A stretch of 24,220 nucleotides of DNA from a virus, in the IMG/VR virus record IMGVR_UViG_3300046680_000350, positions 1 to 24,220 of that record; one strand, written 5' to 3'. Below, piece after piece: positions 12,711 through 24,025 of this stretch. The translations under genes were made by a program, and so were the position numbers. The notes below the pieces were generated by a model. That model saw only the letters and a list, made by a program, of their open reading frames with translations. It searched no databases and was not told the origin of the DNA. The stretch's first letter is position 1, and each line of letters begins with the position of its first letter.

Positions 12711-14537
12711 TTAGCTGAACGGGGTGGTGTCCGAGACCTGGAGACCCTGGAGAATGCCGCTGTACTGCGGGGCGTGGGCCACGAGAGCTCCGTACATGAA
12801 GATGCTGTAGCGGAACGTCGCGTCAATGACCGGCCACGCCACAGACACGTAGTCCTGGACCATGGTCATCTCCCACGCGTTCGCAACGTTCGTCCACGTC
12901 TGCGGGAGCTGGTAGGACATCAGCATCGCGGAACCCTGGGTCAGCCACGGGTGCACAACGAGCTTCAGGATCGACCGGGTGATCGGGTTCTGGAACTCGG
13001 AGACAGCCGCACCGACGCGGACGCCGGAAACGTCTGGCTGGTCCAGGAACAGACGGTAGTTCGTGGCAGAACCCTGCGAGATGACGTCGTTCGAGAGGCG
13101 CATGATGTCGCCGCCCTCACCGACAATCTCCGCCGGGTCGGCACGGAACGCGCCAGGGTTGTTGCTGGTGGTGTTCGTGCCGTTCCACAGAGCCTGGAGG
13201 GCCGTGTACAGAACGTTGTAGTTCAGGTGCTGGCCGACCGAAGAGTTGACGTAGCCGCCCTGCCAGTTGCTCGGGTACACACCCGAGGTGGCGGACTTGC
13301 CCGTCAGGGTCGGGATCAGGCCCTCCATGCGGGTGCCCGTACCGGTGCCGGTGTCAGCCGCAGGCGGCACGACAACAGCAGGCAGCACAGCGAAGCCCTG
13401 GAGGGTGTACTTGGTGCCGCCGACACCGGACGCCATCAGGTAGTAGCTCGTGCCGTCGAAGCCGTAGACGTTCCACGACTGGCCACCAGCGGACATCGCC
13501 GGGAAGGTGACGTCCACAACCTGGCCCGCAGCCACCGCAAAGGTGGTCGACGCGGCCGACACGGCAGTGGAGCCGTAGTAGTTGGTCGCAGCCACCTTCA
13601 CCGCAGTGATGGTGGTGTTGAACGCGGTCTCGTTCGAACCGGCGGTACGGACGGTCGCAGTCGGGGTGCCAGGCGTCGCCAGGACGGTGCTGGACGCCGA
13701 CAGCATCGCGTACTCCTCACCGAGCATCATCTCCTGGAGGAGAATCAGGTTGGCGAGCGCCGAAATGTCCTCGAAGCCCTGACCGGCGAACTGCGCCAGC
13801 CACGACAGCGACTCGGTCAGACCGAAGAAGCGGTACGGGACATTCAGCTGGACCTCGGTCTGAGAACCAGCGTTCGGCAGGTTGAGCGGCCACGAAGTAG
13901 ACGCCAGAGAACCACTGGACTGAACCAGCTCGGGAATCGAGATGTCCGTGACGCCCTGGCCACCCGTCTGGGTGCCGGAGATGCCGGTGAACACGCGCTC
14001 GATACGGCTGGTGCCCTGACCGGCCGGGCGGGGGAGCTTGTTCCGGAAAACCGTGTACATCGGGTAGATGAGACGGCTCGGAGCGAGCAGGTCAAAAGGC
14101 ACAAGGCCGGAGACGGTGCCAATGCCGAGGTTACCGGCGGTGAAGCTCTTCAGGGCGTCCGCGCCACCGGGCATCTGTCCCAGAACCTGGGAGAGCTGCT
14201 CGCCGATGGACGGAGCGGTCAGCGCGGTCTTCAGGTTGCCGAACTGGCCCAGGAACTGGGGGTTCAGGCCCTTGACGACGTCCGCTTTGCGCGTGTAGCC
14301 ACGGTTGGTCTCCGTACGGAGCTCCATGGTGGCCTGGTGCGCCTTGGTCAGGATCTGACCCGGGTCACTCAGCGCCTGGTTGCCGGTACCGATGTAACCG
14401 GCACCCTTGACCATGTACGACATGCGGTTCTTGAGCATGTCACCGGAACGCGAGTACTGTCCTGCCTGAGCAGACGCCTCGTTGTTGGTCGGCCCGACCG
14501 TGGCGGGAGGGACCTCCATGCTGAGAATGTCAGCCAT
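12711..14537 (-). CDS. Major capsid protein with inserted beta domain
   Basis: A 608-aa protein, ATG at 14537 behind AAAGGAAA. It directly follows the protease/scaffold gene and is followed by decoration genes, the usual place for the capsid gene. Capsid-like landmarks include VSGLVPFDLLAPSRLIYPMY and TVFRNKLPRPAGQGTSRIER (N-arm and start of the HK97-type fold), PYRFFGLTESLSWLAQFAGQ, GFEDISALANLILLQEMMLG, and the C-terminal TRSILKLVVHPWLTQGSAML. Residues about 287-395 form a separate beta-rich, Ig-like piece (TTITAVKVAATNYYGSTAVS, QSWNVYGFDGTSYYLMASGV) that would stand on the capsid surface. The usual fold needs only 300-400 aa; this insertion and a long N-terminal part of about 140 aa explain the size. 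Family assignment rests on order, size and fold landmarks. Confidence 0.88.
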   Translation of the reverse strand: MADILSMEVPPATVGPTNNEASAQAGQYSRSGDMLKNRMSYMVKGAGYIGTGNQALSDPGQILTKAHQATMELRTETNRGYTRKADVVKGLNPQFLGQFGNLKTALTAPSIGEQLSQVLGQMPGGADALKSFTAGNLGIGTVSGLVPFDLLAPSRLIYPMYTVFRNKLPRPAGQGTSRIERVFTGISGTQTGGQGVTDISIPELVQSSGSLASTSWPLNLPNAGSQTEVQLNVPYRFFGLTESLSWLAQFAGQGFEDISALANLILLQEMMLGEEYAMLSASSTVLATPGTPTATVRTAGSNETAFNTTITAVKVAATNYYGSTAVSAASTTFAVAAGQVVDVTFPAMSAGGQSWNVYGFDGTSYYLMASGVGGTKYTLQGFAVLPAVVVPPAADTGTGTGTRMEGLIPTLTGKSATSGVYPSNWQGGYVNSSVGQHLNYNVLYTALQALWNGTNTTSNNPGAFRADPAEIVGEGGDIMRLSNDVISQGSATNYRLFLDQPDVSGVRVGAAVSEFQNPITRSILKLVVHPWLTQGSAMLMSYQLPQTWTNVANAWEMTMVQDYVSVAWPVIDATFRYSIFMYGALVAHAPQYSGILQGLQVSDTTPFS

Positions 14538-14564: not shown

Positions 14565-17393
14565 TTACGGGTTGATCCCCGTCATCTGGTAAAGGCGACT
14601 CCAGGCAGCCTCCCGCTGCGCCGGGTCTGGGTTGTTGCGAGCCTCCAACTGGAGAGACTGCATCAGGGCCAACTGAGTACGCTCCGCGTTCTCTGCGACC
14701 GTACGGGCGGCCACCGGCACACCCGTAGCGGACTTGTTGGCGGTGTTCTGCATCGCAAGGCCCTTGAAAGGGGCCTCGCGCGGGTCAGGAAGGTCGCCAA
14801 GCGCATCAAGGCGCTTCTGCTGCTTCCGCAAAGCCTTCTGGGTGACGGCAAGCTGCTCGGACTGGGCAGTGAACTGCTCCATCAGAGCCGCAAGCTTCTC
14901 AACGAGCGGATTGGTGGCCTCGGCGAGCGCACTCTTCATAATGTCGCCGAAAACGGGAGCCTCCGGCTCAACCGCCCCGTCGGACACCGTCGCTGCCTTC
15001 TCCACGAAAACGCCCTCAAGACCGGCCGCGTTCGCCGCCTCGCGGGCCTGCTCAATGAGCTCCTGCGCCTTAGCGGTCATCTCCGGGTCCTCCTCCGACT
15101 TTCCGACCGGCAGAGGAACCGGACGTGCACCAACTGGCGGCTCCCCACCAAGACCGGGGGCAGCCATGGGGCACAGGTCCGGGAACGTCTGCGCAATGTG
15201 GTCGTGCATGGCCTGCATCGCCGATTTGGCGCTGTCCCGCAGGGCGTTGCGGTAGTAGGTGCGGCTCATGCCCGGGGGAAGAGGCGCTGGCTCGATCACG
15301 CCCGAGCCCTTGTTCGCAGGTGACTGCTCAGCGCGCCCAGCACTCTGGTAGCCCTGGCTGAAGTCGTCTGCGCTCATGTCGCTCGTGGGCACACTGTGCG
15401 TGTTCGGACCGGCATGCCCAGAACTCAACTGTGCCTGCCCCGCAGTCAGAGCCGGACGGCGGAAGCGGGTCGGAGAGAGCTCGGTCGGCGTCGGGAAAGA
15501 ACCCGGACCCTTGTTGGCGTCCGTGAACTCCTTGTGCAGCTCATCACGGAGCTCCGCAATGACCTCCGGGTCCGTGCCCTTGATCGTGACGGCGTGCTGC
15601 CACATCAACGCCATGTGGCGTGCCTCGTCCAGCGGGGCAGACGCGGCGGCGTCGAGGGCCTTCTGCTGCCACTCGACCGCACTCAGCTCGCTGAACGCGT
15701 CCGCCTGGAAGCACTTCGCCACGTCCGACGGCTCAAAGGCAGCACACAGGTGGTCGTGCAGCGCCCCGAGGTCATGCGGGGCACCGACGCTCTTGTGCCG
15801 GTCGGCGGCCTTCATGTAGCGGCTGTCCGGGTCGGTCGGCAGGCCCGCATCGTGCTCGAACGATTCGATGGCCATACCGTCCGGCTCACGGTGAGCCGGA
15901 ATGGGGTCAATGCCTGCGGCACCAGGTCCCACAACACCATCCCCCGGAGTCGGCTTGCCCTTTTTCTTCTTTTTCTTCTGAACCTGGGGAGCTGGGACGC
16001 CCTTCAGTGACAACCCGCAGTGCGAGCAGAAACTGTGGTCCTCATCGGACGCGGAACCGCAGCCCGAGCACGACATGCTGCCAGGACCGTTCTTGACGAC
16101 GTCCGGATCGGAGGACTTGTCGGCCTTGGGCAGCTTTCCGCCGCACTTTTCGCAGATGCGGAGCTTGGAGTCCGCGTGGTGCGAAGCGCCGCAGTCGCAG
16201 TCCTTCTCGCCCTTGGTGGCGTCCGGCTTTGCCTCGTCGTCCTTCTCGTCGTCCTTCTCGTCGTCGTCGTCGTCCGAGGAGCCGAAAGGCTTGGCGGCAC
16301 CCTCAAAAGCGCCACCCTTCTTCTTTTTGCCCTTTTCGAGCTCGGCGTCAGGCTCCATCTTCCCCACCCCGATCTCTTCTTTCCAGGAATCTGGAAGTTC
16401 GGCAACGAAAGACGGTCCCTTGCGGCGGGCAATACTGATGATGTTCGACTTCAGCTTGTCACTGGAGAAGTTCCCCTCCCCGGCACGCCCGATCGAGGAC
16501 GCGGCATCGGAGACGTCACCTGGGGTGACAATCGGGAAGGAACGGCCCGACCCAGCGAAGTCGGCGGCCGGAATCTTGTCCCGATCCACTCCCCCGCCGA
16601 CATCCGGGTCCATCTTCCGCTTCTCGGTGGCATCGCTGGCGGCACGCTCCTCGGCGACCGCACGGTGCTTGAGGAGCTTCGCGAGATCGGCGGGCGAGAA
16701 GGAAACGGAGACGTCCGTCGGCAGCTCAACCGAAACGGTCTCCGGATCGGCCGTCTTGTTGATGACGTTGCCGACCGTGCTCTGGAGCTTCGTGATCAAG
16801 CGGTCCATGTCCGCGTCCGAGGCGGACTGGACACCCTTCAGCTCCAAAATGATGTCATCCGGCCCGAACAGCTCGTCTACGAACTCAGGAAGACCGTCCG
16901 AGGCGGATTTCACCAGCTGCACACCGCAGTTCTTGTTCGCCGGGCGGTCCACGAGGGAAATCTCGACGATCTCCGTGCTGGGTCCGCCCTTGATCCGGCC
17001 CCCACGGGCAATCGGGTCACGGACGATGTCCGGGCGGGAAATACCGACCGAATAGGCGCGCAGAACGCCCTTCTCCACGAGCCGCTTCGCCACAGGCTCC
17101 ACGATGAGGGACTTGACCCACGTCGCGCCCTCAGCATCGGTATTCGCCTCAATGCCGATCCCCGCAGGGTCACGCTGCGAGTTGTGCTGCACACGAACGT
17201 TCCCACCGCTGGAAAGCCACGACTGAATCGCCTTGGCGGACCACTCGGGGTCGACGATCTGCTCATCGCTGTCTACCGAACCGTCGGTAGCCTTGCCGTA
17301 GACGTAGAGGTCCCCATCCGGGGTCCGCTCGCTCTTGGTGATAGGGAACGAGATGTAGGTCAGGTCCCCGCTGTCTGTCAGAGTGGCTGCCAC
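14565..17393 (-). CDS. Prohead protease / zinc-ribbon / scaffold polyprotein
   Basis: A 942-aa protein with a GTG start at 17393 behind AGGGAG. Residues about 1-165 are an HK97-type (S78-like) prohead protease: NVRVQHNS with H70, LRAYSVGISRPDI with S115, and STEIVEISLVDRPANKNCG with acidic residues E141/E144. Residues about 270-345 (IPAADFAGSGRSFPI, SIGRAGEGN, IISIARRKGPSF) resemble a small domain seen in other phage polyproteins. An acidic/Lys low-complexity part (DDDDDEKDDEKDDE) follows. Then come two zinc motifs: CDCG/CEKCGG at about 399-418 and CSGCG/CSHCG at about 442-460. A His/Cys-containing helical region (about 505-625) is unassigned. The C-terminus (about 770-942) is coiled coil (LVEKLAALMEQFTAQSEQLA), as in scaffolds. 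It probably shapes, then processes, the procapsid. Confidence 0.85.
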   Translation of the reverse strand: MAATLTDSGDLTYISFPITKSERTPDGDLYVYGKATDGSVDSDEQIVDPEWSAKAIQSWLSSGGNVRVQHNSQRDPAGIGIEANTDAEGATWVKSLIVEPVAKRLVEKGVLRAYSVGISRPDIVRDPIARGGRIKGGPSTEIVEISLVDRPANKNCGVQLVKSASDGLPEFVDELFGPDDIILELKGVQSASDADMDRLITKLQSTVGNVINKTADPETVSVELPTDVSVSFSPADLAKLLKHRAVAEERAASDATEKRKMDPDVGGGVDRDKIPAADFAGSGRSFPIVTPGDVSDAASSIGRAGEGNFSSDKLKSNIISIARRKGPSFVAELPDSWKEEIGVGKMEPDAELEKGKKKKGGAFEGAAKPFGSSDDDDDEKDDEKDDEAKPDATKGEKDCDCGASHHADSKLRICEKCGGKLPKADKSSDPDVVKNGPGSMSCSGCGSASDEDHSFCSHCGLSLKGVPAPQVQKKKKKKGKPTPGDGVVGPGAAGIDPIPAHREPDGMAIESFEHDAGLPTDPDSRYMKAADRHKSVGAPHDLGALHDHLCAAFEPSDVAKCFQADAFSELSAVEWQQKALDAAASAPLDEARHMALMWQHAVTIKGTDPEVIAELRDELHKEFTDANKGPGSFPTPTELSPTRFRRPALTAGQAQLSSGHAGPNTHSVPTSDMSADDFSQGYQSAGRAEQSPANKGSGVIEPAPLPPGMSRTYYRNALRDSAKSAMQAMHDHIAQTFPDLCPMAAPGLGGEPPVGARPVPLPVGKSEEDPEMTAKAQELIEQAREAANAAGLEGVFVEKAATVSDGAVEPEAPVFGDIMKSALAEATNPLVEKLAALMEQFTAQSEQLAVTQKALRKQQKRLDALGDLPDPREAPFKGLAMQNTANKSATGVPVAARTVAENAERTQLALMQSLQLEARNNPDPAQREAAWSRLYQMTGINP

Positions 17394-17435: not shown

Positions 17436-17657
17436 TTAGTCGTCGTCCACCAGCGTGGCACTCGGAAGCCGCCACGCCGGTAGTTCCCCTGTTTTCAGTT
17501 TGGTACGCCATTTGCCGTCCGTATCCGTCCACACATACCCGTGGTCGGTCATGACGGCGTCGTACTTGATGCGGACGCGCTCACCGAGCTCTTCCAGCTT
17601 GTTGAGCGCGTCCGCAATATCGGCGAGCAGGACAGAAGCGACTTCAGAAGTGCTCAT
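17436..17657 (-). CDS. Small protein between portal and protease genes
   Basis: A 73-aa protein whose ATG at 17657 overlaps the portal stop by 4 bp (ATGA), with AGGAAAGG upstream. A longer frame from 17762 would lie inside the portal gene and is rejected. The first half is helical (MSTSEVASVLLADIADALNK, LEELGERVRIKYDAVM), the second half strand-like (TDHGYVWTDTDGKWRTKLKT) and ends acidic (TLVDDD). It is translationally coupled to the portal gene, so the ratio to portal may be fixed. I recognise no family. It occupies the slot where many phages encode a MuF-like minor head protein, but is far too short to be one. Confidence 0.75.
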   Translation of the reverse strand: MSTSEVASVLLADIADALNKLEELGERVRIKYDAVMTDHGYVWTDTDGKWRTKLKTGELPAWRLPSATLVDDD

Positions 17658-20600
17658 GACTGCCTTTCCTGCCCGGCTGCAAGCGCCGCCAGGACGAGGG
17701 GGAGGTCCGCCAACAGTTCGGCCCGAATTGCCGGATTGCCTTGCAAATGGTCGACGTCCCACCAGGCGAGGGACTCGAACTCATCACCGTCCGGGTCGTC
17801 CGGGTTCATGACATCATCCCGGCTGTCCCCGATCTGGACACTGTCCTCCGTGGGCACTTCGTAGACGAATCCACGGTACTTTCCGTTGGACGAGAGCCAT
17901 TTGCCCCGCAGGCGTCCGTCAGGCAGGTGCAGACCCGTCTCCTCCTGCCACTCCCGCACAGCACCCATAACAGGAGACTCGGAATCCTCCAGGCAGCCGC
18001 CCGGGAACTCCCAGGTGCCTGCGGCGGGATCCGGAGGAGTCGTGCCCATCTTGTCGGAGACGCTTTCGCCGTCGTCGTGGCTGATGGAGCCATCCGCATG
18101 AGACCACCAGTCACTCCCTTCCATGCCCCAGGCGGCGGGAGTACCACAGGGGCATACGGCGGCTTGACCGGCCGCCCGCTGGAGCATCAGGACACGGCCC
18201 GAATCGGCTGCCCGGATAGCAATACCCGAAGCGACCGGACCCTGCGGCCCGAACCTCTTCGCGACACCGCCGGAAACACTCTCCGGATCCCACGCGTCAC
18301 AGACGTCACTGGACCGGATGACACCCTCGACCAGCGTGCAACTGTCCGGGGCACGGAACATGGAGCACGTTCCGCAGCTCTCCCCCGCCTCCGTGGCCTG
18401 CCGGTAATCCACCGACTCGGGGGTGACCTTCTCCCGCTTGCTCGCCGAATCCGGCTCCTTGTGGAACTGGTAGGCATGCGTCTCGAACCACGGGCCGTCC
18501 TGGGAATGCACCCGGCCGATGTACACCAGCGCCGGACGCCCCAGCTCCTTGTACGCCAGAGCACGGTGATGCCCGTCAACGACATCGACAGTGGAATCCC
18601 CCGGCTCCAGCACAGTCACCGACGGCTTCGGAACATCACCGGAGCCGATCCGCTCCTTGAAAGCGTCGACCTTCTCCTGCTGGTGGTGCGCAGCCCAGTG
18701 CTCCTCATTGCTGTAGTTCACAAACTCCTGCGGAAGACTCACCGGGCCAGTCCAGCGGGCCTTTTTGACCCACTGAATGGACTCCGGCGGAAAGTTCTTC
18801 AGCAGCTGCTCGTACACCACGTCGGCGGACACCGAGGGATGCGCCGGGATGTGCACCTCGGACTTCGCCGTCTGAATACCCTCGGCGTCGTGCGGGAACT
18901 TCGTGAAACCCCCGCCACCGGCCGGATTGCTCCACCAGTCAGGCTTGTCCGGATCCGGATCCGCCCAAAACTCCTGGCCGCTGTCCGAAACCCGGCGCAT
19001 CCGCCGTGAGACGTCAATCGCAGTATCCACGTCCAATCCCTTGGCCATGTACTCCGCAATACGGGCCAGCACGTCGTTGTCGATGTGCTTGGCCTCCCAG
19101 GTGGAGATCATCCGACCCTTTTTGACGTGCCGGGCGAGGGCCTCGAACTCCGACTGCACCGCCCGCTCGTCGCCCTCGCTCTTGGCAGCCCGCGAGGCGC
19201 GGGGGCGCTTGGAACCGGCCGCCGCAACATCGTGCGCCGGTGTCTGGGCGTTTCCGTTGCCGTCGGTCGGCTTCGCACCCGCCGCCGGTTTGGCGGCAGG
19301 CTTGGCGGCAGGCTTGGCAGCCGGTTTCGCTGCGGCAGCTGCACCCGCCGCCGGTTTCGCGGCCGACGGAGACGGCTTCGTCCCCGCAGGCGGCATCCCC
19401 GGAACCTCCGGAGGCGTCACCGGCGGCGTTACCGCAAGCGTCGGAGCACCCGTAGCACCCGCAGGAAGAGCCCCGAACTCCGGACCCTGGAGATTGTTCG
19501 TCCGCTGCGCCTCCACCGCCTCCTGGAGCGGGAACCAGCCCTGCGGCGTCGCCCACCCCGGGTCCGAGGTCTCCGGCAGGCCCCACGGCTGCAACTTCAG
19601 CTCGGAACGCGCCTCGTCGATCGAACGCAGACCCGCACCCACCTGCTGGGTCAGCAGCTTCGTAAGGACCTCCTCGTCCTTCTCCTCCTGCGTCCCCTCG
19701 AATACGAACCGCATATCGTCCTGCTTGCAGATCACCTGGAGGATGTAATCCATGATGTCCGCAATGAACGTCAGCGTCGGCTTCGTGGCCTTACGGGCCT
19801 GAACATCCTGCGACATCTTCGCCATCTGATGCGCAGCACCCGGCGAGGTGGTCGTAGACACCTTCGGCATGATGCCCAGCTCCATCGGCTGCACATCGAA
19901 CGCCATACAGACCTGGTTCATCACCACTTCGTCGAACTGGTCCGCAAGCTGCTGCTCACGCTGCGGCATCACCTTCGAATCCGAGGGAAGAACAATGATC
20001 TTGTGCTTCCACGCCGGGTCACCGGCAATCGCATTCAACGCGTCCTGCAACTCGCGGATCTGATTCGGCGTCATGTTCGAGTTCACGCCGCCAGGACTCA
20101 CATACACCGCCGGAACCGTTCCCTCACGGAAATAGTCCAGCTGGTAGCCCTGCTTCTGCAAACCCGACATCACCGGAATCAAGGCCCGCTCGATCGGCGG
20201 AAAACCGTACGGAGTCCACCGGCGCGGCACCATCGGCAAGTACAGCAACTGGTTCGCGTGCCAAGAATTGACCTCGGAACCCTTCAAGTTACCGTTCGCG
20301 ATGTCCCGCTCCGTCAGCAGCGTCATAAAATCAGAACGCGGCACCCCGTACAAGTACTGCTGGTACGCGGCAGCCGGAGGACGAGGCCGGGCACCATGCA
20401 TGTCCAGCAGCGGGCGGATCGTCGGCCCGTTGATCAGCGAAACAGAATCCAGGTTCGACCCCAGAAGCCCCTTCTTGCTGGAACGGTCCCACTTGGAGCG
20501 GAACAACAGCGACAGCGCGTCGAAAACGAAAATCTCCTCCAGGAACGCGTCGATGAACGAGTCCCACGAGAAATAATCCGGATCCGGGCCGCTCCGGAAG

Positions 20601-21136
20601 AACTTCATCGCCTCCTGGCGGCGCTCCCCGAAGTCCTTCATGTCATCATGCGACCCGCGCATCGCCTTCGCCGCATCATGGGTCGGCATGATGTCCCAGT
20701 CGATGCCACGGATCTCATTCTTCCGCAGCTGAATGCACGCACGCGCCACCGAATACAAGTCCGCCAGCGAGCGCAGCGTATTGAAGTCCGCGAGCTTGAT
20801 GCCCTCCGAGCCCGGAGTACCCGTCGGAAGGTTCCAACCCACCTGGTACTCGTACAGGCGTGCGTCCGGAAAGTCCGAACCCGGCTCCGGACCGTCCACC
20901 GGCACCGGCAGAATCGGCGAGAACGGGCCGAACGCGCCATTGAGGAAGTCATCGGCCGGACGCGGCAGATACGAACGGTACGCATTCGTCCAGGACCCGT
21001 CCTGGCCCCCCGTGTCCAACTGCCGGGCCATCGGGGACACCGAACCGATATACCCGTTCCCGGAACCCTGCGCCGAGGGGCTCTGCTGCTGACGGATCGC
21101 CTTCGCACTGGAAATAATGGAACCGCGACCGGCCAT
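17654..21136 (-). CDS. Portal protein fused to ParB-like, Cys-motif and Nudix hydrolase domains
   Basis: About 1160 aa. ATG at 21136 (MAGRGS) is preferred over GTG at 21142 because GGGGG lies seven bases upstream. Residues (counted from the GTG): about 1-530 portal, with the FSPILPVPV peptide and LYEYQVGWNLP at 74-105, ARACIQLRKNEIRGIDWDIM, NSWHANQLLYLPMVPRRWTP, PPIERALIPVMSGLQKQGYQ, and a C-terminal helix (EEVLTKLLTQQVGAGLRSID). Residues 588-625 are a KPAA-repeat linker. About 760-890 is ParB-like, with DVVDGHHRALAYKELGRPAL at 853-872. C923, C926, C935 and C948 form a possible metal site. About 966-1150 is a Nudix fold with an exact box G1049-x5-E-x7-RE-W-x-EE-x-GL1071. Portals form 12-subunit rings for DNA entry and exit; typical length is 400-600 aa. 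The extra domains would give enzyme copies at the vertex; activity is inferred. Confidence 0.9.
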   Translation of the reverse strand: MAGRGSIISSAKAIRQQQSPSAQGSGNGYIGSVSPMARQLDTGGQDGSWTNAYRSYLPRPADDFLNGAFGPFSPILPVPVDGPEPGSDFPDARLYEYQVGWNLPTGTPGSEGIKLADFNTLRSLADLYSVARACIQLRKNEIRGIDWDIMPTHDAAKAMRGSHDDMKDFGERRQEAMKFFRSGPDPDYFSWDSFIDAFLEEIFVFDALSLLFRSKWDRSSKKGLLGSNLDSVSLINGPTIRPLLDMHGARPRPPAAAYQQYLYGVPRSDFMTLLTERDIANGNLKGSEVNSWHANQLLYLPMVPRRWTPYGFPPIERALIPVMSGLQKQGYQLDYFREGTVPAVYVSPGGVNSNMTPNQIRELQDALNAIAGDPAWKHKIIVLPSDSKVMPQREQQLADQFDEVVMNQVCMAFDVQPMELGIMPKVSTTTSPGAAHQMAKMSQDVQARKATKPTLTFIADIMDYILQVICKQDDMRFVFEGTQEEKDEEVLTKLLTQQVGAGLRSIDEARSELKLQPWGLPETSDPGWATPQGWFPLQEAVEAQRTNNLQGPEFGALPAGATGAPTLAVTPPVTPPEVPGMPPAGTKPSPSAAKPAAGAAAAAKPAAKPAAKPAAKPAAGAKPTDGNGNAQTPAHDVAAAGSKRPRASRAAKSEGDERAVQSEFEALARHVKKGRMISTWEAKHIDNDVLARIAEYMAKGLDVDTAIDVSRRMRRVSDSGQEFWADPDPDKPDWWSNPAGGGGFTKFPHDAEGIQTAKSEVHIPAHPSVSADVVYEQLLKNFPPESIQWVKKARWTGPVSLPQEFVNYSNEEHWAAHHQQEKVDAFKERIGSGDVPKPSVTVLEPGDSTVDVVDGHHRALAYKELGRPALVYIGRVHSQDGPWFETHAYQFHKEPDSASKREKVTPESVDYRQATEAGESCGTCSMFRAPDSCTLVEGVIRSSDVCDAWDPESVSGGVAKRFGPQGPVASGIAIRAADSGRVLMLQRAAGQAAVCPCGTPAAWGMEGSDWWSHADGSISHDDGESVSDKMGTTPPDPAAGTWEFPGGCLEDSESPVMGAVREWQEETGLHLPDGRLRGKWLSSNGKYRGFVYEVPTEDSVQIGDSRDDVMNPDDPDGDEFESLAWWDVDHLQGNPAIRAELLADLPLVLAALAAGQERQS
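17930..17998 (-). other. Nudix box coding segment at the portal C-terminus
   Basis: The encoded GCLEDSESPVMGAVREWQEE, followed by TGL, fits G-x5-E-x7-R-E-U-x-E-E-x-G-U at every fixed position; only the U residue is Trp instead of the usual Ile/Leu/Val. All metal-binding glutamates are present. It is preceded by GTWEFPGG, the normal strand before the box. The loop before that is about 45 residues long and carries a CPCG pair and two His. Confidence 0.85.
19278..19337 (-). repeat. Tandem 12-bp repeats encoding KPAA linker
   Basis: Units of TTGGCGGCAGGC-type sequence (plus-strand view) repeat about four times, two of them exact at 19290-19313, with degenerate copies at each end. They encode Lys-Pro-Ala-Ala units that form a flexible linker between the portal body and its C-terminal domains. 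Such repeats expand or contract easily. Confidence 0.8.
20837..20920 (-). other. Proline-rich portal peptide shared with the 74-aa protein
   Basis: The portal encodes FSPILPVPV and then, after an acidic spacer, PDARLYEYQVG. The 74-aa protein at 23530-23754 carries FSPILPVPV, a second PILPVPV, and PARLSEYTIGG in the same order. The DNA around 20900-20928 and 23682-23709 is also similar. Confidence 0.75.
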
Positions 21137-21159: not shown

Positions 21160-21528
21160 CTACAGACCGAGGTCGAGCGCTACCAGACTGGCTGCCTGCA
21201 TCGTGTTGTCGGTGTTCAACGCGTACGCCGTAAACGCGACAGTATGCGAACCAGGACTGAGAACCGCTTTCGCGACAATCTGCTGACCAGCAGAATCATT
21301 ATAGATACTGACGCCGTCAACACTGATGTCGACCTGCGCAATATCGTTCTGGGCGGCATTGCTGCGCCCGAAGAACAGGACCGTGTGCCCAGTCCCGGTG
21401 ACAACCTCACTGGCCGCCTGAAACAGCGACGTACTGGCGTTCTGCGGCAGCGGCACGCCCACTGCGGTAGCCACCAGCAGCGAAACGGGCGTACCGGAAC
21501 CGGTCGTGGTACTGATGCTGGCAGTCAC
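21160..21528 (-). CDS. Small beta-rich protein upstream of portal
   Basis: A 122-aa protein; GTG start at 21528 with AGAGGA upstream. An ATG two bases earlier is followed by an immediate stop and is not used. It begins MTASISTTTGSGTPVSLLVA and is strand-rich throughout: HTVLFFGRSNAAQNDIAQVD, ISVDGVSIYNDSAGQQIVAK, SPGSHTVAFTAYALNTDNTM. The pattern of alternating short strands with 'G-S-H-T-V-x-F-x-A' resembles Ig-like or jelly-roll domains of surface proteins. It follows two fiber-like genes with a 9-bp gap and ends 23 bp before the portal ATG. A virion surface or fiber accessory protein is the best guess; no family recognised. Confidence 0.7.
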   Translation of the reverse strand: MTASISTTTGSGTPVSLLVATAVGVPLPQNASTSLFQAASEVVTGTGHTVLFFGRSNAAQNDIAQVDISVDGVSIYNDSAGQQIVAKAVLSPGSHTVAFTAYALNTDNTMQAASLVALDLGL

Positions 21529-21537
21529 ATACGTCCT

Positions 21538-22488
21538 CTACGGAAGGGCAAACTTGGAAGCAGACGTGATCGTGCAGTTGGCGGTGTCCGCCAGACTGGT
21601 GCAGATACGGGTCGTGGCAATCCAGGCGGTGACACAACCGATACCGAGGAAGTCCGGATTGGGTATGTAGCCACTGGTCCCCACAGACGCGACCGCCGCA
21701 GCGAGGCTCCCGAAAACGGTCTGCCCGTACTGAACGATCATCTGGTCGGCGACCGTACCGGACCCGAAAATCCACAGCCGCTGAAGCGTAGAAGAATTCG
21801 TGCCGCCGCCGACAGCCGTCTTCACACCGTTGTTGTCATAGTTCAACGGGTCGAAAGCACTCGTCGGAACCGTCGTCTCCGAATTCGTGGTACGCAGTGC
21901 GTACAAGAACTGTGCTGGTGACTCAGCCGGAGCGGTCACCACGTGCGGATCATTAGACGTACTGCCGGACGCGAGGCCCCACCCGAACGACGGGGAGAAG
22001 AACGAACCCACCGCCTTGTTGAACGTCAGATTCGCGTTCGGCGTCACTACATTGTCCGTAGGCTCGAACGGCCCCAGCCCATACATCAGGTCGTAAACCT
22101 GATTGTGGTTCTGCTGAAGCACCGTCGGCAACGCCTGAAGCGAGAAGATCGCCCCACCAGGCGGGGTGGATCCGGTGATCCCGAGCTGGATCAGCGTACG
22201 GCGCTGCGCATCCGTAGGCCGCGCAGCCAGCGCGCTGATGTTGCCGTTGACGTCCGAAACCCACCAGTTCACCACCCGGTTCGCCGCAGCCCCGCTGATC
22301 GTGACCGTCTGCGCGGGAATCGTCACCGGCGTGATGATCGGATTGTTCGGCTGGGAGACAAAATCGCAAAGAAACGCGTTGGCCTGGGTGAACGTGAACG
22401 TGTTCGTCGGCGAACTGACCGCCATGAGACCACCGGACACAACACCCGTGGACAGCGACGGATACTTCGAATTCGGGTTATACGACAT
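21538..22488 (-). CDS. Fiber- or receptor-binding-like protein
   Basis: A 316-aa protein. The ATG at 22488 (MSYNPNSKYPSLSTGVVSGG) is preferred; a GTG at 22512 would add eight residues. It overlaps the upstream gene by 11 bp. The N-terminal part (TFTQANAFLCDFVSQPNNPI, TPVTIPAQTVTISGAAANRV, VNWWVSDVNGNISALAARPT) and the C-terminal part (TLQRLWIFGSGTVADQMIVQ, YGQTVFGSLAAAVASVG, then a TAWIATTRICTSLADTANC-like end) follow the layout of tail-fiber or baseplate proteins: 'x-R-L-W-I/Y-F ... V-Q-Y-G-Q-T-x-F-x-S-L-x-x-A', then a final 'x-x-W-I-x-x-x-x-x-x-T-x-L' strand. It is unusual to find such a gene upstream of portal instead of after the tape measure. Receptor binding is inferred. Confidence 0.72.
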   Translation of the reverse strand: MSYNPNSKYPSLSTGVVSGGLMAVSSPTNTFTFTQANAFLCDFVSQPNNPIITPVTIPAQTVTISGAAANRVVNWWVSDVNGNISALAARPTDAQRRTLIQLGITGSTPPGGAIFSLQALPTVLQQNHNQVYDLMYGLGPFEPTDNVVTPNANLTFNKAVGSFFSPSFGWGLASGSTSNDPHVVTAPAESPAQFLYALRTTNSETTVPTSAFDPLNYDNNGVKTAVGGGTNSSTLQRLWIFGSGTVADQMIVQYGQTVFGSLAAAVASVGTSGYIPNPDFLGIGCVTAWIATTRICTSLADTANCTITSASKFALP

Positions 22489-23131
22489 ACCAGGCCCCCG
22501 TGACCCCGCCACTAGAAGCCACCGTGATGGACACGTACTGATTCACAAGCGTGGAAGTCGGAGCACCATCAATGGTCTCACCGGACTGCGCAGCCACAGT
22601 AACCACGTTGGTACTGCTGTCGATCTTCTTGATGTCATACCGGTTCAGAACCCCGACAGCACTAGGCAGCGTGACAGTGACCGGAGCCGACGCAGCATTG
22701 ACATAAACCGTCCGGTCGTACACCGTCAACGCAGACGAACCAGTGATCGTCCTGTACCCGGTGTTCTGAAGGGAAATCCAGATCGCAGCACCCGTCGCCA
22801 CACCCACCGCAATGAAAACACCGCCCGAGGTGTTGTTGATCCACAAGGAACCCTTGGCATAACCCTGAGTACCGTCATTGGAAACCGTAGGCGCAACCGT
22901 TGCCGTGACATTCGTCAGCGGCACACCGTTCAGACTGTTCCCGAACGCATGCGGAGTCCCCCACAGGCCAGCAGCCCGGGGACCGTAATAGAACCCGACG
23001 TTCGTCGTATCGAGGTAGAAATCCCCGTCGAGGGACCCCACAAGATTCGACGCCGGAGCACCCGCCCCCGAAAGCCAGCTGAACCCACGCGGACCGGACG
23101 TACCCGCCGTGGTAACCGTGACATTGACCAC
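22478..23131 (-). CDS. Fiber-like virion protein
   Basis: About 217 aa. GTG at 23131 (MVNVTVTTAGTSGPRGFSWL) follows AGGGGGG at a workable distance; GTG at 23140 is possible but lies on top of that ribosome site. Residues about 14-50 read GPRGFSWLSGAGAPASNLVG and GDFYLDTTNVGFYYGPRAAG, then LWG. This 'G-x-x-G-D-x-Y-L-D-T ... Y-G-P-x-x-x-G-x-W-G' motif is widespread in phage fibers and head fibers. The middle (KGSLWINNTSGGVFIAVGVA, TGAAIWISLQN) is a repeat of the same type. The end (SSTNVVTVAAQSGETIDGAP, TSTLVNQYVSITVASSGGVT) resembles a common fiber C-terminal fold. It is upstream of portal with other fiber-like genes, so it may be a head or neck fiber. Confidence 0.78.
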   Translation of the reverse strand: MVNVTVTTAGTSGPRGFSWLSGAGAPASNLVGSLDGDFYLDTTNVGFYYGPRAAGLWGTPHAFGNSLNGVPLTNVTATVAPTVSNDGTQGYAKGSLWINNTSGGVFIAVGVATGAAIWISLQNTGYRTITGSSALTVYDRTVYVNAASAPVTVTLPSAVGVLNRYDIKKIDSSTNVVTVAAQSGETIDGAPTSTLVNQYVSITVASSGGVTGAWYVV

Positions 23132-23144
23132 CGAAAGCACCCCC

Positions 23145-23516
23145 CTACGGAGCCGGAACCGCCTGTGCGAGGAACACGCCCGTCATCAACGCCGTCGCAT
23201 CACTAAGACCCTGGTCCATCCACAGCGTGTAATTGCCGCCACCACCGGACAACAGCCCCGTCGCAGCAGCATTCACCACCACCGTCACCGCAGAAGCGGC
23301 CGTGCTCACCAGGATCGTGCCATTCCCGGTGGACGCCGTACTGGTCACACTGAAAATCGACGCCGCCGAAGAAGCCGTACTGCGGACAATGAACTCGAAA
23401 ATCTTGCCCGTCAGGTTCGCGAGAGAACCATCCTCGTTGTACACCGTGACGACCACCGACCACTGCGACCCCTGGGCCGTCACAACGGTGTAGTTGTTCG
23501 GAAGGAGCGCCGTCAT
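23145..23516 (-). CDS. Ig-like N-terminal baseplate/fiber accessory protein
   Basis: A 123-aa protein, ATG at 23516 behind GAGGGAGGG. It begins MTALLPNNYTVVTAQGSQWS and continues VVVTVYNEDGSLANLTGKIF, EFIVRSTASSAASIFSVTST. The pattern 'q-G-s-x-w-x-v-x-v-x-x-x-n-e-D-G-s-x-x-d/n-L-t-G-k' is seen in N-terminal attachment domains of baseplate and fiber accessory proteins. The end reads GNYTLWMDQGLSDATALMTG, VFLAQAVPAP. It probably helps anchor the two fiber-like proteins that follow. The link to fibers is inferred from order and fold resemblance. Confidence 0.7.
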   Translation of the reverse strand: MTALLPNNYTVVTAQGSQWSVVVTVYNEDGSLANLTGKIFEFIVRSTASSAASIFSVTSTASTGNGTILVSTAASAVTVVVNAAATGLLSGGGGNYTLWMDQGLSDATALMTGVFLAQAVPAP

Positions 23517-23529
23517 AACCCTCCCTCAA

Positions 23530-23754
23530 CTACTCGTCCTGGGAACAATGGCAGATCAGGCCGCCGATGGTGTACTCGGAGAGGCGGGCAGGCAACGGCT
23601 CCGTGTCGTCCGTGTCATCCACCGGAACCGGAACCGGGAGGATCGGCATGACCGGCCCCCACGGAGACTCGAAAGGCTCCACAGGAACCGGGAGAATCGG
23701 AGAGAACTCATCGAGGGGAACAGGCGGATGACACCGGGGGCAGATGCTACACAT
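23530..23754 (-). CDS. 74-residue proline-rich protein carrying the portal peptide
   Basis: ATG at 23754 (MCSICPRCHPPVPLDEFSPI) overlaps the previous stop by 8 bp. Frames starting at 23945 or 23955 are rejected, because they lie wholly inside the 92-aa gene and give Arg/Cys-rich shadow sequence. The N-terminus has CxxC-xx-C (C2, C5, C8) plus H9, and the end has CHC (C68, H69, C70), so one zinc ion could close the chain into a ring. Between them lie FSPILPVPV (17-25), PILPVPV (37-43) and PARLSEYTIGG (55-65), the last two elements in the order of the portal N-terminus. Length and cysteines are unlike any family I know. It may compete with or bind the same partner as the portal arm; that is inference. 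Confidence 0.72.
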   Translation of the reverse strand: MCSICPRCHPPVPLDEFSPILPVPVEPFESPWGPVMPILPVPVPVDDTDDTEPLPARLSEYTIGGLICHCSQDE

Positions 23755-24025
23755 CGCCGGAATCCCCATCCCACACGTCCTGCGGGAACACCACCGAAGC
23801 CTCCCAGTCGCCGTTCGGCCAGAACTCCACCGACGACACCGTCTCCCCGTTCGGATTCCACTCGATCCGCCTGATCCGAGGACACGGCTGCAACTGCGCA
23901 GGCAACGCATGCACCCGCACATGAATACCGCCGCAGTACCAGCACGCCGAAACACCGTCCGCCTCGCCCGAGAAGATCAGCCGCGCTTGCGCCATATCCT
24001 CAGCAGACAGATCGTGCTCACTCAT
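23747..24025 (-). CDS. Small hypothetical protein with CxxC motif
   Basis: A 92-aa acidic protein, ATG at 24025 overlapping the preceding stop by 8 bp (ATGAGTGA) and its own stop overlapping the next start by 8 bp. It begins MSEHDLSAEDMAQARLIFSG and continues EADGVSACWYCGGIHVRVHA. The pair CWYCGG with H at 'GGIHVRVH' could bind a metal. The second half is strand-rich (IRRIEWNPNGETVSSVEFWP, NGDWEASVVFPQDVWDGDSG). No family is recognised. Tight overlaps on both sides show it belongs to the same operon as the 74-aa gene. Position near the start of the head module suggests a role in packaging or early assembly, without direct evidence. Confidence 0.75.
   Translation of the reverse strand: MSEHDLSAEDMAQARLIFSGEADGVSACWYCGGIHVRVHALPAQLQPCPRIRRIEWNPNGETVSSVEFWPNGDWEASVVFPQDVWDGDSGDV

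Follow-up and report, generated by a model that had tools for sequence, protein, structure and literature searches.

A 74-residue protein encoded by an uncultured phage carries copies of the N-terminal arm of the phage's own portal protein, and copies of the same arm recur on otherwise unrelated proteins of related phages. The protein was found in a window (the whole stretch of viral DNA analysed) of 24,220 bases with 62% G+C. The sequences establish that the arm has been copied, that the copy is under constraint, that it turns up on unrelated proteins and that it follows the portal of the same genome. We propose that the 74-residue protein would be recruited to the head through the partner of the portal arm, a reading to which we give a little under even odds (about 0.45). 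The features are collected in Table 1.

Table 1 Arm copies, capsid-segment copies and neighbouring features. Positions are those of the window unless a record is named.
Feature	Position	Strand	Details
74-residue portal-arm-mimic protein	23530..23754	-	stop codon included; from ORF and L001 homolog
First, partial arm copy in 74-residue protein	23677..23706	-	FSPILPVPVE
Second, full arm copy in 74-residue protein	23560..23661	-	WGPVMPILPVPVPVDDTDDTEPLPARLSEYTIGG; portal-only profile E 3.3e-4
Candidate metal site, N-terminal half of 74-residue protein	23728..23751	-	CSICPRCH (CxxCxxCH)
Candidate metal site, C-terminal half of 74-residue protein	23545..23553	-	CHC (CxC)
92-residue CxxC protein	23747..24025	-	immediately upstream of 74-residue gene
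Portal polyprotein	17654..21136	-	portal core, ParB-like stretch, C-terminal NUDIX domain
Portal N-terminal arm	20825..20968	-	LPRPADDF..FGPFSPILPVPVD....ARLYEYQVGWNLP, residues 57-104
942-residue protease-containing protein	14565-17393	-	
608-residue putative major capsid protein	12711-14537	-	named from gene order only
Segment of putative major capsid protein	14016..14111	-	SGLVPFDLLAPSRLIYPMYTVFRNKLPRPAGQ, residues 143-174; copied in related phages
G038 arm carrier			72-residue CxxC protein ending FGPFAPIEPVPVEEMPNAAHPFFRPEPRGFDYPVC at the stop codon
G029 arm carrier			ends FGPLSPIHPVSDDGARPEPRRFPYPVC at the stop codon
G030 arm carrier			111 residues, ends QQPRRFPYPVC at the stop codon
G031/G032 arm carrier			91 residues, ends ARPQPRAWRYPVG at the stop codon
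G027 arm carrier			159 residues, ends RRSPRAFKYPVC at the stop codon
G057 arm carrier			holin-like, 174 residues, ends FGPHAPIRPIPVDDPPSARQSPPRVWNWPIG at the stop codon; PHROG holin E 7e-7
G056 arm carrier			209-residue coiled-coil protein directly upstream of portal; GPLSAIMPVPVDEEPHAIEPRRWEYPVIGNLP near its end
G089 arm carrier			206 residues, ends ESPRTWDYPVG at the stop codon
G015 arm carrier			317 residues; arm mid-protein, C-terminal CxxC...CxxC stretch
G024, G026 arm carriers			weaker copies
G067-G070			second copy inside portal ORF, between portal core and MuF-like part
L191 capsid-segment protein	L191:480-668		62 residues, ends QPFNLCCPARLIYPVYGKRR at the stop codon
G038 capsid-segment protein	G038:C1:105688-106311		ends WFDLSQPARLIYPVPPPFRNRKR at the stop codon; competing ORF overlaps first part of frame
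G027 capsid-segment protein	G027:C1:60676-61155		segment near N-terminus
G056 capsid-segment and arm protein	G056:C1:1450-2088		

The 74-residue protein and its gene neighbourhood

The head genes of the window lie on the minus strand and encode, in this order, the 92-residue protein, the 74-residue protein, three small or fibre-like proteins, a 122-residue protein, the portal polyprotein and the 942- and 608-residue proteins. The 92-residue protein, to which no family could be assigned, is kept near the portal in most of the group at ~30-90% identity and lies directly upstream of the portal in several genomes. Tail-fibre-like and Ig-like genes occupy the interval between the 74-residue gene and the portal (21160-23516, minus strand), an unusual location that is also seen in several relatives. 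The 942-residue protein has a prohead-protease-like N-terminus (a weak match) and double zinc-ribbon-like motifs mid-protein, and is probably a protease plus scaffold.

The 74-residue protein reads MCSICPRCHPPVPLDEFSPILPVPVEPFESPWGPVMPILPVPVPVDDTDDTEPLPARLSEYTIGGLICHCSQDE. Its sole close homolog in IMG/VR (L001:3893-4132) retains both PILPVPV copies, the R...Y.[VI]GG end and the CxxCxxCH and CxC motifs. The first arm copy of this homolog is FGPFSSILPVPVE, and its FGPFSSILPVPV resembles FGPFSPILPVPV of the portal. Comparison of the two genes gave a dN of 0.20 and a dS of 0.83 (dN/dS ~0.24), with 14, 12 and 29 differences at the three codon positions, which indicates that the 74-residue gene is translated and under purifying selection. 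The start codon is preceded by GGGGA and overlaps the stop of the upstream 92-residue gene by 8 bases. A preliminary description of this DNA had allowed that the small frame might not be translated; from the substitution pattern, the overlapping start and the GGGGA, it looks translated. The same description called the protein zinc-type, a label that is plausible given the conservation of CxxCxxCH and CxC in both known members.

No family match was found for the 74-residue protein and its structure model (pLDDT 59) is without a confident fold. A scan of IMG/VR for PILPVPVP returned 47 stretches, in which the L001 contig held the only relative of the 74-residue protein and the rest were unrelated. 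A scan for GPVxPxLPxPVP gave as relevant matches only the contig of L001 and a protein of the L015 record. Lopton gp4 and similar weak phage matches proved unrelated on inspection.

The 74-residue protein shares a peptide with the portal arm

We searched the window with a 79-residue reading of the 74-residue ORF (P0001), and the single other match was the portal frame (E 1.6e-5). A profile built from portal arms only recovered the 74-residue protein (Table 1) and its L001 homolog (E 2.7e-5). With the arm profile, the best match among the controls, which were reversed ORFs and a 454-kb set of DNA from other phages, lay at E 0.04-0.07, and none fell below 0.04. The peptide that the preliminary description had noticed in both proteins, FSPILPVPV followed by an R-L-x-E-Y stretch, is real and stands above these controls, and the second internal PILPVPV copy is present, together with ARLxEYxIGG, within 23560-23661. 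Two details needed amending. The longer motif P-x-R-L-x-E-Y-x-I/V-G is shared as A-R-L-x-E-Y-x-[VI]-G but not in its P-x-R-L part, the portal reading P-D-A-R-L-Y-E-Y-Q-V-G. The reported DNA similarity exists (a 20-nt family at 85-90%) but its coordinates were off by one, the correct positions being 23687-23700 and 20904-20917.

The DNA similarity follows from the shared peptide. The codons for ILPVPV are not the same in the 74-residue and portal copies, which gives no indication of recent copying at the DNA level, and a recent duplication or a recombination site was ruled out. Aligned in a mixed profile (A5), the 74-residue protein fits the portal-arm core FGPxxPIxPVPVD...PRxxxYPV; its copy is without the portal D81 and W101, and has a Trp in place of portal F69. 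By these comparisons, the shared peptide is a genuine copy rather than a chance resemblance.

The arm is a conserved extension of the portal

The portal of the window matches phrog_2662 (E 1.5e-40), a portal family that includes MuF or NUDIX fusions and whose distant isolated relatives are the Arthrobacter phages Sonali and Mufasa8. We modelled the portal using AlphaFold2 with 63 sequences. The core of the model has a tailed-phage portal fold: residues 36-486 match the portals of phage 812 and RcGTA with Z ~21. In the portal fragment that contains the arm (LPRPADDFLNGAFGPFSPILPVPVDGPEPGSDFPDARLYEYQVGWNLP), pLDDT is below 50 over the first 29 residues and the match to known portals begins after the arm, so the arm is a conserved linear extension outside the portal fold.

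Portal relatives were sampled from 41 IMG/VR loci at first; the sample was later widened to the 80 best among the stretches that encode a relative, which number at least 468. Of the 41 first loci, 39 have a recognisable arm, and the other two, L035 and L041, are without the portal N-terminus. Arm positions G, F, P, P, P, D, P, R and Y are invariant across the portal group, with F, P, P and R invariant even at ~30% portal identity, in a Chloroflexi MAG and in Methylobacterium contigs. The L002 record encodes a portal that is 88-90% identical and keeps the arm; the 74-residue gene is absent and no second arm copy was found anywhere in the 108-kb record. As to whether one copy can change free of the other, which the preliminary description had held would count against a common partner, the answer goes half way: portals of the L002 type retain the arm without a second copy. 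Since the arm is kept in such records, it appears to be conserved for a role of the portal, and the 74-residue protein would be an accessory, non-obligatory user.

Copies of the arm recur on unrelated proteins

We used a portal-arm profile built from 35 portals to search whole IMG/VR records, 41 at first and 50 more afterwards. It recovered every N-terminally complete portal plus second copies elsewhere, in about a dozen otherwise unrelated proteins, several of which terminate exactly at the arm (...RPEPRRFPYPVC followed by the stop codon). The arm is the sole common part of the carriers. Their remainders are holin-like, coiled-coil, Cys-rich (several) or unassigned, and no recognised family common to the carriers was found outside the arm.

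With the portal-only profile, E values per genome range from 2e-11 to 4e-3, and G026 is weaker at 0.04. The non-portal copies include G038 (3e-8), G056 (8e-8), G029 (6e-7), G057 (2e-6), G001 (3e-5), G032 (1.6e-4) and G000 (3e-4). The second copy within the portal ORF of G067-G070 scores from 2e-11 to 1.5e-9; in L243 (G067) and L244 (G069), which encode portal-MuF polyproteins, it lies at about residues 682-706. The copies of G015, G024, G026, G027, G030, G031 and G089 are weak by sequence and were assigned partly on position and pairing, and those of G024, G030 and G089 were missed by the portal-only profile and found by the mixed profile A5 or by reading. A pattern scan with the stop codon (TGG also accepted) returned 13 matches, comprising 10 portals, two known carriers (G029 and G038) and one unrelated sequence.

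We scored the arm of every carrier with its own portal and, for comparison, with the portals of the genomes of other carriers. Over 12 pairs the observed total was 866, compared with 696 +/- 34 in 200,000 re-pairings (P=5e-6, a value that includes a contribution from the shared ancestry of neighbouring phages). Leaving out the internal portal copy (11 pairs) left P unchanged at 5e-6. When 70 distinct portal arms were ranked, the mean position of the own portal was within the top 15%. The co-variation of copy and portal arm that the preliminary description proposed to look for can be examined in this way across genomes, and the copies resemble their own portal more than other portals. The tracking suggests that the copies stem from the variant present in the same genome or are kept similar to it.

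A segment of the putative major capsid protein is copied in parallel

For the 608-residue putative major capsid protein, neither solved structures nor named families gave a match, and the annotation of its phage relatives is hypothetical. The copied segment of this protein sits where its homologs start to match, and so may begin the mature capsid protein. A profile of the segment recovered proteins of L191 (E 1.6e-6), G038 (8e-5), G027 (9e-4) and G056 (3e-3), the best reversed control being 0.052, and the segment is C-terminal in two of the four carriers. The G056 carrier, which also matches the family of the 608-residue protein, bears both arm and capsid segment, with LAPYDLQAPAQILTPSYSPMRN as its copy of LVPFDLRAPSRLIYPVYTVYRN in the putative capsid protein of the same genome. 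We considered a common origin of the portal arm and the capsid segment and rejected it, as hhalign found no similarity.

A proposed head-docking tag and its alternatives

The same peptide recurring on unrelated small proteins suggests that it works as a head-docking address tag. We propose that the arm is a linear docking peptide that would reach out of the portal fold to a partner in head assembly; the likeliest candidates are the capsid lattice, on its inner face, and the scaffold that surrounds the portal vertex. In related phages, unrelated small proteins would repeatedly have acquired the arm or a corresponding segment of the putative capsid protein. Since its tag is copied from the portal arm, the 74-residue protein is expected to bind at the site of the arm, and could be recruited into, or held at, the assembling head, perhaps being packaged. 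A partner common to the two proteins, as suggested in the preliminary description, is supported by the recurrence on unrelated proteins and by the tracking of the own portal variant; the plug or assembly-timer role suggested there is possible but not supported. The likeness of one carrier to a holin speaks against head docking, since a holin would be odd head cargo. So do the small share of large records in which carriers are present, the distance of several carriers from the head genes, the loss of portal D81 and W101 and the change of F69 in the 74-residue copy, and the naming of the putative capsid protein from gene order only. We hold more tentatively, as a possibility somewhat short of an even chance, the wider proposal that arm and capsid segment are interchangeable address tags that have moved among unrelated accessory proteins and place them on or in the growing head.

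The acceptor site of the arm could instead be where the 74-residue protein competes with the portal, delaying or redirecting portal incorporation without being packaged. CpmB, which competes with the 80alpha scaffold through a shared motif (PMC5644958), is a precedent, one partial and one full copy could add avidity, and a portal expected as a single 12-mer would presumably be sensitive to a small competitor. However, the carrier is absent from most phages of the group and carrier architecture varies between phages, which fits cargo better than one conserved regulator, and we think this unlikely. Somewhat less probable again is that the partner is the portal itself, the arm binding a neighbouring subunit; the 74-residue protein, or MuF-type parts with an internal copy, would then join the ring through exchange of arms and might act as a plug or stabiliser. 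In T4, loop1 of the N-terminal region packs on the neighbouring portal subunit (PMC7136217); the second copy of G067-G070 lies between the portal core and the MuF-like part, and the copies follow their own portal. Yet the parallel copies of the putative-capsid segment, once together with the arm in the same protein, point to a wider head interface.

A neutral by-product, arising from proline-rich low complexity or from passive duplication of the 5' end of the portal gene with no shared partner, has in its favour that PILPVPV alone is proline-rich and that PILPVPVP does occur by chance in unrelated ORFs. This is improbable given the dN/dS of 0.24, the retention of both copies in L001, the diverged ILPVPV codons, the recurrence on unrelated proteins and the own-portal pairing (P=5e-6, shared ancestry included). 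Even more doubtful, to the point of being a marginal candidate, is that the carriers act as decoys for a sensor by which the host would detect portal or capsid arms. Some carriers do lie off the head genes in small-gene clusters (G027 and G038), and host restriction is countered by the comparable set of T-even internal proteins (PMC3012670), but no host sensor is known here and a mimic of the trigger would by default activate the sensor.

Comparison with known systems

Head docking by a copied arm has partial parallels. Assembly of T4 depends on the N-terminal 73 residues of its portal, which are located within the head in contact with the capsid protein (PMC7136217); the same paper notes that the N-termini of portals have not been resolved in other phages and are likely to contact the capsid. 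The N-terminal region of T4 gp20, outside the portal core and in the head, is an essential capsid anchor and resembles the arm in this respect. In contrast to the arm, that region is not described as copied by any protein other than the portal in the T4 literature consulted, and the arm sequence here is specific to this portal family. The structural literature consulted on phage 812 and HFTV1 gives no role for the portal N-terminus.

The T-even internal proteins are a diverse set with only the capsid-targeting sequence in common (PMC3012670), and the 74-residue system is best read as working like such a sequence, copied from the portal arm. In both cases, here judged by sequence, a short peptide is common to otherwise unrelated accessory proteins. 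The differences are that the peptide here is also the portal N-terminal arm, usually at the C-terminus of the carrier, and that a second class copies a putative-capsid segment. CpmB of SaPI1 and the 80alpha scaffold have a common C-terminal RIIK motif, bind the capsid protein near-identically and compete (PMC5644958). Here too a small protein has, close to its C-terminus, a motif taken from an assembly protein, which in CpmB binds capsid. In that system a satellite draws on the scaffold, whereas in the present one assorted proteins of the phage itself draw on the portal. In the open-access literature searched, we did not find a portal-arm tag with a parallel putative-capsid tag moved among unrelated proteins.

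The copies bear on two questions still open for most phages: the way in which accessory proteins enter tailed-phage heads, and the binding partner of the N-terminal arms of portals, which structures usually leave unresolved. As natural tags that are copied from the portal arm and vary with it, they offer a direct route to its binding site and a sequence signature by which uncharacterised proteins could be predicted to be head-associated, and could possibly serve as loading tags for engineered capsids. If true, the proposal would describe a modular addressing code copied from the virion's own joints in uncultured phages.

Distribution and location of the carriers

Sonali and Mufasa8 belong to the same portal family as the window, but arm carriers were not found in them or in the other isolated relatives searched (THSA-485A, Polewnik, Strzyga and MMB025). 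Carriers are present in only ~9 of the 27 records of at least 50 kb. Those of G038, G027, G015 and G057 are distant from the head genes, where early or lysis genes may lie. In G027 the capsid-segment carrier and the arm carrier are ~1.3 kb apart on the same strand (G027:C1:60676-62815, minus strand), within a small-gene cluster off the head genes.
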